From: a virus
Length of the DNA stretch: 42,524 nucleotides
Strand: one strand, 5' to 3'
Virus record (IMG/VR): IMGVR_UViG_3300020459_000024
Coordinates: 1 to 42,524 of that record
Part shown: piece by piece, positions 1,739-5,773 of the stretch
Numbering within the stretch: position 1 is the first letter of the stretch
How the letters are laid out: each line of letters begins with the position of its first letter
Translations under genes and position numbers: made by a program
The notes under the pieces: generated by a model
Told to the model about the DNA's origin: nothing
Databases searched by the model: none
The model's input: the letters and a program-made list of their open reading frames with translations, nothing else

Positions 1739-1865
1739 TACTGATATCTCTATCCACTTGTGGAGACTTAGGTTAGAATGTGGTGGTCCCAAACCCTTAA
1801 ATCATGGACCCGTTGCGGGGGCTCGTTACAGACGACGACGCACTAGTCGTATTCAACGCTATTGA
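1686..1865 (+). CDS. small protein, unknown (59 aa)
   Basis: ATG at 1686 opens 59 codons ending at TGA 1863-1865. The product starts MNILSFGDFYLGIDKESFTD and ends in a very basic stretch (ARYRRRRTSRIQRY) that lies in the overlap with the MarR-like gene. The overlap of 62 bases and lack of a recognisable family leave this uncertain. Region 1617-1685 otherwise holds no gene. Confidence 0.35.
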   Translation: MNILSFGDFYLGIDKESFTDISIHLWRLRLECGGPKPLNHGPVAGARYRRRRTSRIQRY

Positions 1866-2211
1866 AATCGTTCGTTCTTTAGGCATTGACGAGGGGGATA
1901 CCACCAAACCCCGTGACATGCCTTTGCAAGCACTCCAATGCTTTCTATACATCTGCTCTCATGACAAATGTCATAAGTCACGTATGGAACAGGACATGGG
2001 ATTGAGCACAGCATCAGGCAGTAGAAACACTGACTACTTATGTGCTCAAAACAGATATAAGACAGCGGGGCTCAACCTAATCATAAAGGAGGCAGATCCA
2101 CTCAACCGACGTAGGCAACAACTACGACTGACACCGCTTGGTGTTCGCATTAAAAACGAACTACTGAATGAATTAAATGGACTTCACAAGCACAATGATC
2201 TTGAATCCTGA
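1804..2211 (+). CDS. MarR-like winged-helix regulator
   Basis: A 135-residue protein with a winged-helix layout. A helix at 39-52 (MPLQALQCFLYI) is followed by a helix-turn-helix at about 56-80 (KSRMEQDMGLSTASGSRNTDYL). A wing at about 89-112 (GLNLIIKEADPLNRRRQQLRL) and the typical closing LTPLGVRI complete it. This is the MarR fold pattern; similar small regulators occur near the integrase or RNA polymerase of T7-like marine phages. It overlaps the integrase by 35 bases, so the two are translated together. It may control early genes or the lysis-lysogeny choice, possibly through the AAGGANTCCTT palindromes just upstream. No effector site can be read. Confidence 0.65.
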   Translation: MDPLRGLVTDDDALVVFNAIEIVRSLGIDEGDTTKPRDMPLQALQCFLYICSHDKCHKSRMEQDMGLSTASGSRNTDYLCAQNRYKTAGLNLIIKEADPLNRRRQQLRLTPLGVRIKNELLNELNGLHKHNDLES

Positions 2212-3181
2212 GGTTAATCATGTGCTCCCGGCTACGGAGTACAAAAAAATTAAACCTGACAAGATCAAGACCTTTTCAGAAGGTTTCTTCCACACACTAC
2301 AGGTAACTCCAAAATGGAGAGAATCAGAACGACCAAGGAGGCAATTTCCTGGGAGTAATCAAAACAACATCCGTGCTCTCAACCAACTAGCAACAGTTTG
2401 GGGTGATCCACCCATAGACAAAATAGATCATGACTTAGTTCATGAAGTAATAGCTCAGTTACAGGAGGACACCAACAACTCCAACGCAACTTACAACAGA
2501 CACATTGCCACAATTAAGAAGGTACTGAAAGTATGCGCTCGTAGTAATTACATCAGCGGTGTTCCTGAAATTGAGTTTCTTGAAAGAGAAGCAAAACGTA
2601 GGCCGACTTACTTCAGAAAAGAACAGCTCATCAGGCTTCAACAAATAGCCCGTGAACGTGGGGATGACACTCTTGCACAAGCAATGGAACTCTCAGCCTT
2701 TACAGGTGTCCGTAAAGCGGAACTACTGCGCCTCAGAGTATGGGACGTTGACTTTCATAACAACGTTCTTTTAGTAGGCGGTACACCTGAGTCACGTACT
2801 AAAGGACGTAACTACCGTGAAGTCCCTATCAACAAAAAATTGCTACCAATTCTTGAGTACAGAGCATCATCAGCTCAACCTTACAATCAGTTATTGTTTG
2901 ATGAATACCGTAATGAATGGGAACTTCATCGTCACTGGGAATCAACCCGTTATCGCTTGTCCCGTGAAGACCGTACGGTCTATAAGATCCAAGTAGGCAG
3001 AAAAACAATCTGGTCTCACCAGTGGAAGTGTTTCCGTAACTCCTACATCACTTGGGCGCTTGATCAAGGCACACCTTTGATGACTGTCAAGAAATGGGCA
3101 GGCCACAAAACGGTCACTGTTACAGAGGGTTATTACGCTCAAAACAATGCCAATGATCAGGAGGAAGCACAGAGAATGTAG
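2177..3181 (+). CDS. int: tyrosine-type site-specific integrase
   Basis: A 334-residue protein with a SAM-like core-binding domain at about 60-130 and a catalytic domain at about 145-325. Catalytic residues: R179 in AFTGVRKAELL, a Lys near 209 (TKGRNYREVPI), R287, H310 in KKWAGHKTVTV, and the nucleophile Y319. In the usual His-x-x-Arg box the first position is Lys (K284-C-F-R287), a known but less common variant. The gene overlaps the MarR-like gene and is followed by an attachment-like region with a tRNA-Leu fragment. It should recombine phage DNA with a host tRNA-Leu gene. ATG 2195 is an alternative start. Confidence 0.9.
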   Translation: MDFTSTMILNPEVNHVLPATEYKKIKPDKIKTFSEGFFHTLQVTPKWRESERPRRQFPGSNQNNIRALNQLATVWGDPPIDKIDHDLVHEVIAQLQEDTNNSNATYNRHIATIKKVLKVCARSNYISGVPEIEFLEREAKRRPTYFRKEQLIRLQQIARERGDDTLAQAMELSAFTGVRKAELLRLRVWDVDFHNNVLLVGGTPESRTKGRNYREVPINKKLLPILEYRASSAQPYNQLLFDEYRNEWELHRHWESTRYRLSREDRTVYKIQVGRKTIWSHQWKCFRNSYITWALDQGTPLMTVKKWAGHKTVTVTEGYYAQNNANDQEEAQRM

Positions 3182-3197
3182 TGCGTCTACAAGGTCA

Positions 3198-3244
3198 GGA
3201 AACCAGGGTTTCCACCCCTGTCAAGCTTCAAAAAACCCCTGTCA
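3198..3244. repeat. inverted repeat and two 10-base direct repeats, likely integrase arm sites
   Basis: A 16-base perfect inverted repeat (GGAAACC-AG-GGTTTCC, 3198-3213) is followed by ACCCCTGTCA at 3214-3223 and again at 3235-3244. The direct repeats are 21 bases apart, two turns of the helix, so both face the same side. They lie between the integrase stop and the tRNA fragment, where integrase arm-type sites occur. A small RNA hairpin at the end of int is an alternative for the inverted repeat. Confidence 0.5.
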
Positions 3245-3264
3245 GCTAGGCTGAAAACGTAGTT

Positions 3265-3304
3265 GGGGGCGTGGCGGAATCGGTAGACGCACGCGACTTA
3301 AAAA
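3265..3304 (+). other. attP: attP core: 5' half of a tRNA-Leu(UAA) gene
   Basis: The sequence starting GGGGGCGTGGCGGAATCGG reads as a leucine tRNA: acceptor strand, D arm (GCGG...GACGC), anticodon stem CGCGA and loop CTTAAAA with anticodon TAA. Similarity then stops: the 3' anticodon stem is mismatched and there is no variable arm, T arm or 3' acceptor strand. It is therefore not a working tRNA. A phage-borne tRNA-Leu fragment next to the integrase is also known from the cyanophage P-SSP7, where it is taken as the attachment site. The rest of 3182-3433 has no gene. Confidence 0.75.
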
Positions 3305-3433
3305 GGCGTGTTTCTATCGGTTCACATGCGGACAGATCAAGGACGCATCCGTCACACTCACTGCGGCGCAGTACTATCCACAAATGAATAGGGGAAAAAC
3401 GGAAATGTAGTGCGTCTAGCACAAATTATTTAG

Positions 3434-5773
3434 ATGAGATCTCAAGCTCAAATCGAAGAGCAAATCAAGCTCGAAAGGGAACAGATCAGCCAAGGCCGTA
3501 AGCGCCTCAGAGACAACACGATCAAGCTTCAGGACAAAGAGTATGCAAGTGCTTCTGTCTATGGCTGTAGCTCCATAGAAGAGCTATTGCCTAAGGCTAT
3601 TGAGCAGATCAAGAGCACAGCTGCCAGAGCAAAGCGCGGGATGGTTGGCAAAGATTTCGCTGTGATCAAGCGCTACCTAGCTGACATCGAACCAGAGGCA
3701 GCAGCTGCCATTGCTTGCAAGGTGACCTTTGACAAGGTGTTCTCTAGTAAGCAGAAGGCAAATCAGCTTCAGAACGTCACTGATGCCATAGGTAAAGCTA
3801 TTGAGGATGAATGCACCATCCGCCACTACGAAGCCAACTGCCCTGGTCTCCTACACGTTTTAAAGGAGAACTATTGGCACCGTTCAATAGGTACAGAACA
3901 AAAAGTAGTAGTCATCAAAACATTGATGAAACGCTATGAGGTAAAGCATTGGGAACCTTGGGGCAGAAGCAACCGAATCAAACTTGGTGGCTGGCTGCTT
4001 GACTGCATCATTCGGGCTAGCGGTTGGTTTGACAAAGAACTGGTAAGGGAAGGACGAAAAACCCCACAGTTTATTGTCCCTACTCCTGAATTTTTAGAAA
4101 TTAGGGATGAAGTAATGGCAACTGCTGAGTTATTCAGCCCTCTTGCTTGGCCAATGCTTATCGAACCAAATGATTGGACTAACGAAAGACAAGGTGGGTA
4201 CATCCTTAATGAAGTGATGAAGGGGTATGACATGGTGCGAAGGTCAGCACCCTGCCTTATACAGGGGGAAACCCCAATCACCTTTTTGAATCATATTCAG
4301 AAGGTTGCTTACACACTTAATCCATTCATTGTTGACGTTGCAGAAACGCTACAAGAACGTGGTATAGCAATTGGTAAGTTTATCCCTGTTGTAGAGTTAC
4401 CTCTACCCAATAAGCCGTTAGACATTGCAGAGAACTTTGATTCTCGCAAGGACTATCGACGTAAAGCAGCTGATGTCATGAACATCAATGCTCAACAATT
4501 CAAGCGATCATGTCGTACACGTATGACCATGAACGCAGTTAAAATATTCAAAGATAAAGAGCAATTCTTTATTCCTTGGAGTTTTGATTACCGAGGACGT
4601 GCTTACCCAATTCCTGCATTCTTAACACCACAAGATACAGACTTTGGTAAAAGTTTATTGCTTTTTGCAGAGAAAGCAACAATGACTTACGAAGCAGAAG
4701 ACTGGCTACGTTTTCAAGTAGCTACTACTGCTGGACGTGATAAAGACACCATAGAAGATCGTCTTAAATGGACTAATCACAATCACTCGCTAATTACACG
4801 TGTTGCAACTGACCCTATTGGAAACCTTTCAGACTGGGAAAAGATCGATGAACCTTGGCAATTCCTTGCCGCTTGTCATGAGTACTATCATACTTGCATT
4901 TTGTGTGATAGAAACTACACAAACTTACCTATTGCCATTGACGCAACGTGTTCAGGATTGCAAGTCCTTGCGGGCCTCGCTAGGGACGCCAGTACAGCAA
5001 AACTTGTTAATGTCTTGCCTAGTGAGAAGCCACAAGATGCCTACAAGGTAGTTGCAGAAGCTGCAAAACCTAATGTTCCAGAATCTATCCGTCCACACAT
5101 GGATAGAAAGGTTACAAAGCGCGTGTGTCTTACTGTGCCATACAACGCAAAACCTTTTAGCTCGCGGGTTTACATCAAAGAAGCTTTAAAAGAAAAAGGT
5201 GTAGAAATTGAAAAAGACGACTTAACAGCAACAGTTAATGCCGTGCGTGGAGCAATGGATGTCATTGTTCCTGGTCCAATGCAAGTAATGAAATGGATCG
5301 AGAAAGAAGTAGGTAAAGCAATTGATCGTGGTGATAAAGAAATCCAATGGTGTACTCCATCAGGATTTGTTGTCACTCAACGATTAATGAAACCACAGGT
5401 AGAAACTATAGAACTACAACTACTAGGTAGATGTCAAATAAAAGTAGCTACAGAAGAAGGAAACAAGGTAGATAAATCACATCATAAAAATGCTACAGCA
5501 CCGAACCTTATTCATTCCTTAGATGCAAGCCTCCTCCACCTATCTGCAATACGCTTCAACGCTCCGCTGGCCCTCATACACGACTCGGTTTTATGTCGTG
5601 CTACTGACATGCATATTCTTTCAGCCATTGTTCGTGAAGTATACTTGCACTTATTTGCAGAACAAGATTACTTAACGTCTTGGGCTAAACAAATCGGAGC
5701 CGAATCCGAACCACCGATTATTGACACACTTAACCCTGAGTCTGTAATTGAATCCACATATTTTTTCTGTTAA
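3434..5773 (+). CDS. rnap: T7-like single-subunit RNA polymerase
   Basis: A DNA-directed RNA polymerase of 779 residues (T7's has 883). Landmarks in order: FDYRGRAYPIP near 385-394; catalytic Asp D503 in IDATCSGLQVL (T7 D537); K562 and Y570 in TKRVCLTVPYN (T7 K631 and Y639); H716-D717 in LIHDSVL (T7 H811-D812). All catalytic positions are kept. The shorter N-terminal domain suggests different promoter recognition from T7. The gene lies directly after the attachment region and its stop overlaps the SSB start (TAATG), starting a long replication operon. It should transcribe the phage middle and late genes. Confidence 0.97.
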   Translation: MRSQAQIEEQIKLEREQISQGRKRLRDNTIKLQDKEYASASVYGCSSIEELLPKAIEQIKSTAARAKRGMVGKDFAVIKRYLADIEPEAAAAIACKVTFDKVFSSKQKANQLQNVTDAIGKAIEDECTIRHYEANCPGLLHVLKENYWHRSIGTEQKVVVIKTLMKRYEVKHWEPWGRSNRIKLGGWLLDCIIRASGWFDKELVREGRKTPQFIVPTPEFLEIRDEVMATAELFSPLAWPMLIEPNDWTNERQGGYILNEVMKGYDMVRRSAPCLIQGETPITFLNHIQKVAYTLNPFIVDVAETLQERGIAIGKFIPVVELPLPNKPLDIAENFDSRKDYRRKAADVMNINAQQFKRSCRTRMTMNAVKIFKDKEQFFIPWSFDYRGRAYPIPAFLTPQDTDFGKSLLLFAEKATMTYEAEDWLRFQVATTAGRDKDTIEDRLKWTNHNHSLITRVATDPIGNLSDWEKIDEPWQFLAACHEYYHTCILCDRNYTNLPIAIDATCSGLQVLAGLARDASTAKLVNVLPSEKPQDAYKVVAEAAKPNVPESIRPHMDRKVTKRVCLTVPYNAKPFSSRVYIKEALKEKGVEIEKDDLTATVNAVRGAMDVIVPGPMQVMKWIEKEVGKAIDRGDKEIQWCTPSGFVVTQRLMKPQVETIELQLLGRCQIKVATEEGNKVDKSHHKNATAPNLIHSLDASLLHLSAIRFNAPLALIHDSVLCRATDMHILSAIVREVYLHLFAEQDYLTSWAKQIGAESEPPIIDTLNPESVIESTYFFC

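Follow-up and report, generated by a model that had tools for sequence, protein, structure and literature searches.

A half tRNA-Leu(UAA) attachment site with a probable RNA hairpin in a T7-like cyanophage, and evidence for a natural prophage in a relative

Introduction

It is debatable whether T7-like cyanophages form prophages at all, since experiments have given integration without lysogeny. The locus described here lies in the virus record IMGVR_UViG_3300020459_000024 (IMG/VR; positions 1 to 42,524, 42,524 bases, hereafter the window), where 39 bases copying the 5' half of a leucine tRNA lie beside an integrase gene. The phage attachment sites (attP) of T7-like cyanophages match the first half of tRNA-Leu genes, and integration of P-SSP7 and S-TIP37 was proven by PCR with no stable lysogens, according to the available portion of Shitrit et al. 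2021 (PMC8776855). Among the uvMED cyanophage contigs, an integrase with a tRNA-Leu fragment was used for host prediction, and one of these contigs matched Synechococcus CC9605 over 39 bp (Mizuno et al. 2013, PMC3861242, available portion). The half-tRNA-Leu attP as such is already known, and the site in the window is a member of this known kind. This analysis adds an isoacceptor target unlike those of the ten isolate attPs compared, a hairpin formed with the core, a related T7-like prophage with both of its junctions in a picocyanobacterial genome, and phage-side promoter-like sequence in two host genomes.

The attP core and its host tRNA

All 39 bp of the core at 3265-3303 matched the 5' half of a marine Synechococcus tRNA-Leu(UAA) gene without a difference. 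The exact 39-mer occurred in six stretches of the genome_contigs collection (84,980 species genomes), all from Synechococcus and including WH7803, and in all six ARAGORN predicted a complete tRNA-Leu (anticodon TAA) that begins where the match begins. Identity spans the acceptor 5' strand, the D arm, and the anticodon loop CTTAAAA, and ends at the 3' edge of that loop; position 3304 is A in the phage and T in 6/6 hosts. A preliminary description of this stretch had the tRNA copy run for about 40 bases to 3304 before homology stops. The identity stands, and its end lies one base earlier. By that description, the lack of any host tRNA gene sharing an identical core of at least 30 bases would have refuted it; 39 identical bases were found. 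Within the window the core had a single occurrence, with up to three mismatches allowed, and 0/100 dinucleotide shuffles contained one. ARAGORN found no tRNA in the window, so 3265-3303 is half of a tRNA and not a gene. Tests for tRNA-dependent lysogeny look for a phage-borne whole tRNA gene matching the disrupted host tRNA, and the window has 0 tRNA genes.

The core starts at 3265, past the integrase stop codon at 3181, and is followed by a T7-like RNA polymerase gene (Table 1). The earlier placement of an attP at the 5' half of tRNA-Leu(UAA) beside the integrase is borne out by the host identity together with these flanking genes, and we are nearly certain that 3265-3303 serves a T7-like cyanophage as its attP. 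The closest relatives of the window were Synechococcus T7-like phages, and it also encodes a T7-like portal (PF12236).

The exact core was present in 20 IMG/VR contigs, with phage-type flanks in all where a flank was present; the bases after it were AGGCGTG in 17 contigs and TCGTTAC in three. Integrases of clade members were 52-87% identical to that of the window. Further relatives carried host-matched core variants, GGGGGCATGG..CACGCG (L049-L051) and ..CACCAG (L061, L066). In a sample of 400 genomes from the WH7803 family, 68 had the core with three or fewer mismatches, including exact copies of both variants. These data bear on the idea that imprecise excision or gene capture left the tRNA half behind as a relic with no function. 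As a relic would allow, the clade of the window is known only from metagenome contigs and no lysogen of it was found in the 400 genomes. Against this, all 39 core columns were invariant in 19 aligned rows at a mean column identity there of 78%, host genomes with exactly the core of each differing relative exist, and integration is proven for two relatives (PMC8776855, available portion). We consider a relic extremely improbable.

Isolate attPs and their terminators

Of 13 cyanopodovirus isolate integrase loci compared, ten had a tRNA-Leu half; Syn5, S-CBP42, and P-SCSP2 had none. Anticodon loops read as Prochlorococcus Leu(UAA) in P-SSP7, P-SSP2, and P-SSP3, as Leu(CAG) in S-TIP37 and four other isolates, and as Leu(CAA) in S-CBP3 and SS120-1. 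By these readings, the predicted isoacceptor target of the window differs from those of all ten isolate attPs. The nearest core matches in the phages collection were 16 records at 92.5-92.7%, mostly annotated as tRNA-Leu genes of other cyanophages.

A stem-loop with a T-run, the form of an intrinsic terminator, stood 29-42 nt after the core in 9/9 isolate attPs, and 0/40 shuffles reached the score in each (the scan left out P-SSP2, which is nearly the same as P-SSP3). The RNA polymerase gene precedes int and attP in S-TIP28 and SS120-1, and the terminator is still found there, so the terminator belongs to the int-attP cassette. The same scan found no intrinsic terminator after the core in the window or in 20 relative loci.

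The mirror-arm hairpin

Directly after the core the window carries an imperfect reverse complement of it, which we call the mirror arm. Local alignment of the core with the reverse complement of the next 32 nt gave a score reached in 1/300 shuffles, and core and arm pair as an RNA hairpin (Table 1). RNAalifold on 19 aligned attPs likewise paired the core with the sequence after it. Folded as RNA over 71 nt from the core start, the window had a z of -4.95 (0/200 shuffles) and its minus strand -1.60. The same fold gave -5.25 to -6.22 for L002, L011, and L023 and about 0 for L021; among four isolates z was about 0 in three and -0.82 for S-TIP37. When 16 distinct core-plus-arm sequences were compared with versions having shuffled arms, 14 had z values of -4.05 to -6.49. 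A sub-clade (L018, L021, L030, L068) has the same or a nearby core and no mirror-arm hairpin, and in L018, L021, and L030 the homology to the host tRNA is five bases longer (TCGTT).

Such an arm might act at the DNA level only, as an extended inverted core site of the integrase or a folded single-strand site with no RNA role. Core sites of tyrosine recombinases are inverted repeats, and the inner CACGC/GCGTG would fit one. Local complementarity above nearly all shuffles in 14/16 distinct sites is also what a DNA site would show, and with DNA parameters the fold of L002 was strong as well (z -4.45). The window, however, reached only -1.37 with those parameters, and the repeat extends about 30 bp from its centre, beyond the usual span of core-type sites. 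Arm mismatches across the 14 sites were mostly of the kind tolerated in RNA, with 36 G-U versus 5 A-C cells summed over related, non-independent sequences, and the plus strand folded better as RNA than the minus strand in all 16 distinct sites. A purely DNA-level arm is possible, and we lean away from it.

The comparative data on pairing were as follows. Among RNAalifold pairs, with the two TCGTT rows removed, arm sites facing G or U varied in 7/13 and those facing A or C in 0/9 (hypergeometric about 0.01, a hand count). Across 13 aligned sequences 89.2% of cells paired, against 24-54% when the arm was slid, a comparison that favours the unslid structure as it was taken from the window. In 2/13 rows, those with a different host tRNA, one pair was changed on both sides (G-C to C-G). 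Such double changes were no more numerous than in shuffles (134/500 reach the count), and the covariation score was reached by 3/500; RNAalifold on 19 rows gave 0 pairs with compensatory change, and Rfam gave no match. Arms of the CACGCG groups lost about 6-12 kcal/mol when placed on the CACCAG core. Since arms of the CACCAG group fit both cores, the specificity of arms holds in one direction only and depends on a single compensatory pair. With moderate confidence, we interpret the mirror arm and core as a sense-strand RNA hairpin under selection.

A related prophage at the same tRNA gene

A search of the 400 genomes with the RNA polymerase of the window returned matches in 35, the best at 67% identity on contig C8 of genome G363. 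The other half of C8 is host DNA, with dnaA, glutathione S-transferase, pyridine-nucleotide oxidoreductase, Na/Ca exchanger, and amidohydrolase genes, and carboxysome genes farther left; the G363 core, GGGAGTGTGGCGGAATTGGTAGACGCACCAGACTTAAAA, separates the host and phage halves. The assembly has only two core copies, and both junctions are exact: the left (attL) at C8:20768 and the right (attR) at C25:3938. The C25 copy adjoins an integrase gene, preceded as in the window by a regulator of the phrog_9665 family, and then continues into the host 3' half. At attR, ARAGORN found a whole tRNA-Leu(taa), downstream of which lie a frame that we take to be ndhL-like, then DUF3007 and trpA. Phage proteins on C8 and C25 included RNA polymerase, ribonucleotide reductase, portal, D1, tail proteins, and terminase, and the prophage DNA was closest to NATL1A-7 and P-SSP2 (about 68%). 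At attL a terminator stands between the host tRNA promoter and the phage RNA polymerase gene. Features including gene order suggest a Prochlorococcus-like host. A tRNA-Asp(gtc) lies within the prophage part of C25.

Of 20 sister loci, 18 had a single intact core with the host sequence left of attL on one side and the host sequence right of attR on the other, as in an empty site. The exceptions were L108, with a distant match only, and L119, with the right flank only. The latter, in G338 (C5 near 46470-47245), keeps the C-terminal 47 residues of a related integrase and, ahead of an intact tRNA-Leu(taa), a flank of phage type; from these features the locus is interpreted as the remnant or scar of a past integration.

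G363 is fragmented, its prophage lies on two contigs with a gap, and amplification chimeras exist, all of which could be read as a contaminated or chimeric assembly holding no prophage. This is very unlikely in our judgement: both junctions fall exactly at the predicted core and on opposite sides, the host DNA flanking each junction shares about 79-92% identity with 18/20 sister loci, where it is contiguous, and there is no third core copy, hence no free attP or empty host site (attB) in the assembly. On this sequence evidence, G363 holds a T7-like cyanophage prophage related to the window. The genome shows the integrated state and not its stability. No report of this prophage was found in a search limited to titles and abstract openings, and an earlier one may be in print.

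Several picocyanobacterial genomes also had frames of about 810-850 aa for a distant T7-like RNA polymerase (26-28% identity), for example G121:C1:2046676, G095:C1:1109160, G279:C1:673592, and G162:C14:113605. The contigs that hold them are long, and some reach chromosome size.

Possible promoter supply to the rebuilt tRNA

According to the preliminary description, integration would separate the tRNA from its promoter unless the phage supplies a replacement. The phage must indeed supply what precedes the rebuilt tRNA, and promoter-like flanks were found in G363 and G338; upstream of the window core no sigma-70-type promoter was found, only the weak TAGGCT listed in Table 1. Host genes of the genus of G363 have TTTACG-17-TAGAGT at -43, in which -35-like and -10-like boxes stand 17 nt apart and the position is that of the -10 box. 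The phage side of the G363 attR has TTTACA-17-TAGGAT at -44 (7/200 shuffles as good), and that of the G338 remnant has TTTACC-17-TATAAT at -43 (1/200). The host pattern itself was not above shuffles (63-77/200 in most), so support for the pattern comes from its conserved place and not its score. A TATAAT before the core was also found in P-SSP7, P-SSP3, and SS120-1, and Synechococcus phages including the window had no such -35/-10 promoter there.

Other sites and neighbouring genes

Two copies of a 15-bp direct repeat flank the core (Table 1), the left less conserved than the right in the 19-row alignment. Integrase arm sites typically flank the core on both sides, and the two best matches to the repeat in the window (one to two mismatches) are confined to the surroundings of attP, with no match this close ahead of the regulator gene. 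Both points favour arm sites over operators of the upstream regulator. Related sites are nonetheless near-palindromic, the right copy stands just before the RNA polymerase gene, and the LUZ100 paper, in its available portion, cites proposed binding sites flanking a promoter upstream of the RNA polymerase gene (PMC10134795). The repeats are likely integrase arm sites and possibly regulator sites, and we treat a role as operators instead of arm sites as a serious possibility.

At the place equivalent to the small inverted repeat after int, the G363 attR has a fold of -40 kcal/mol. Past the hairpin, window positions 3355-3390 contain conserved palindromic stretches in the 19-row alignment, ACTGCGGCGCAGT and a near-palindrome containing TATCCACA that resembles a DnaA box.

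Table 1 Features around the attP of the window and the related prophage
Feature	Position	Strand	Description
Transcriptional regulator gene	1804..2211	+	PHROG 9665 'transcriptional regulator' (6.6e-31); upstream of int, position as MarR-like gene of related phages
Tyrosine integrase (int)	2177..3181	+	334 aa; PF00589 (5.7e-16), phrog_1 integrase (1.4e-35)
Left 15-bp direct repeat	3175..3189	+	AATGTAGTGCGTCTA; spans int stop codon; candidate integrase arm-type or regulator site
Small inverted repeat	3203..3221	+	CAGGG/CCCTG, after int; sequence varies among relatives, seems pairable in many (judged by eye)
Weak -10-like element	3247..3252	+	TAGGCT, 12 nt ahead of the core; its T, A, C and T columns do not vary in 19/19 aligned relatives
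attP core	3265..3303	+	39 bp identical to 5' half of Synechococcus tRNA-Leu(UAA)
RNA hairpin	3269..3329	+	Core as 5' arm, mirror arm as 3' arm; 22 pairs, loop 3295-3305
Mirror arm	3304..3329	+	Imperfect reverse complement of core
Right 15-bp direct repeat	3404..3418	+	AATGTAGTGCGTCTA; 11-bp centre TAGTGCGTCTA invariant in 19/19 aligned relatives
T7-like RNA polymerase	3434..5773	+	PF00940, PF14700; directly downstream of attP; at most 73% identity to Synechococcus T7-like phages
G363 prophage	C8:20768-42998 and C25:3938-19196		Exact attL/attR at tRNA-Leu(UAA) (L090, L093-L098)

Discussion

Our best explanation of the locus as a whole, which we hold with high confidence, is that the integrase uses the 39-bp core against the 5' half of host tRNA-Leu(UAA), that the tRNA is rebuilt at attR, and that an RNA element guards attL. 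The integrase would recombine the core with its identical host counterpart, with the crossover most likely in the anticodon loop. At attR the tRNA 5' half and everything before it would come from the phage and the 3' half from the host, so a complete tRNA would be rebuilt behind int. At attL the host tRNA promoter would point through the core toward the phage RNA polymerase gene, and the RNA element just after the core would most likely end or cut that transcript, as well as the int transcript in the free phage. This element would be the mirror-arm hairpin in the clade of the window, and the intrinsic terminator in the scanned isolates and the G363 prophage. The proposal that integration places the phage RNA polymerase under an open host tRNA promoter was rejected, as the terminators in 9/9 isolates and the G363 attL argue against unhindered read-through.

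Several observations weigh against this account. An integrated copy of the window's own clade was not found in viral contigs, named genomes, or the 400 genomes. The hybrid junctions proposed earlier as a check were found in public genomes for a relative, attL and attR both, and for the window core in 0/20 viral contigs, 0/6 named genomes, and 0/400 genomes searched with the attL pattern; attR of the window core with a host 3' half had 0 matches in viral contigs. The window integrase had 0 matches in the 400 genomes at 1e-15, a search with no positive control; the P-SSP7 query was needed to find the integrase of G363. The window integrase is <60% identical to every integrase in the phages collection, so its specificity is assumed from the core. 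No recognisable sigma-70 promoter was found before the core in the window (nothing above shuffles) or in 14/14 clade members tested. The isolate attPs have no mirror-arm hairpin, and neither do 2/16 distinct sites, L018 (a type shared with L021 and L030) and L068, so the hairpin is not essential to every member.

The arrangement recalls several known systems. In the sib retroregulation of lambda int, as in the window, a hairpin lies close to int and attP, and integration can uncouple it from the transcript of int; the hairpin of the window differs in that its 5' arm is the attP core itself. P-SSP7 and S-TIP37 are, like the window, T7-like phages of marine picocyanobacteria with a 39-bp motif (PMC8776855, available portion), whereas the window targets Synechococcus tRNA-Leu(UAA) and has the mirror-arm hairpin in place of a terminator. 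The uvMED contigs share the integrase and tRNA-Leu fragment, and the available portion of PMC3861242 contains no analysis of flanking elements. In LUZ100, a T7-like Pseudomonas phage with the same order of regulator, int, and RNA polymerase, a strong terminator placed right behind int curbs read-through to the RNA polymerase gene and is a proposed control point of lysis and lysogeny. The available portion of that paper (PMC10134795) places a whole tRNA-Leu upstream of int and reports no half-tRNA attP, whereas the window has a hairpin without a T-run. In the tRNA-dependent lysogeny of actinobacteriophages, attB overlaps the 3' half or end of a tRNA and the phage brings a whole tRNA gene (PMC10865867, available portion). 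Integration at tRNA genes with tRNA supply as a constraint is common to both, but the window replaces the 5' half.

T7-like phages of the pelagiphage type have a complete tRNA-Leu(taa) immediately ahead of int and on the other strand (L045 839-922, L046 886-971, L047 784-869), resembling the tRNA reported upstream of int in LUZ100. These phages may use tRNA-dependent lysogeny.

More tentatively, and as a proposal that may well prove wrong, the attP could be a junction box for transcription, with a borrowed tRNA half at its centre. In the window's clade the mirror arm would have evolved to pair, as RNA, with the half taken from the host tRNA and would track changes of the target tRNA, and the same 39 bases would serve as the hairpin end of a transcript in the phage and at attL and as a working tRNA at attR. 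With phage promoters in relatives, T7-like cyanophages would sit as true prophages in nature, as in G363. If true, natural prophages would contradict the present view of transient-only integration. The G363 genome with both junctions and a second genome with an integrase remnant at the same tRNA make the prophage question directly testable, and the replacement promoter, attL terminator, and mirror-arm hairpin suggest a way for a phage to exploit the 5' half of an essential tRNA gene while neither silencing that gene nor being turned on by it.
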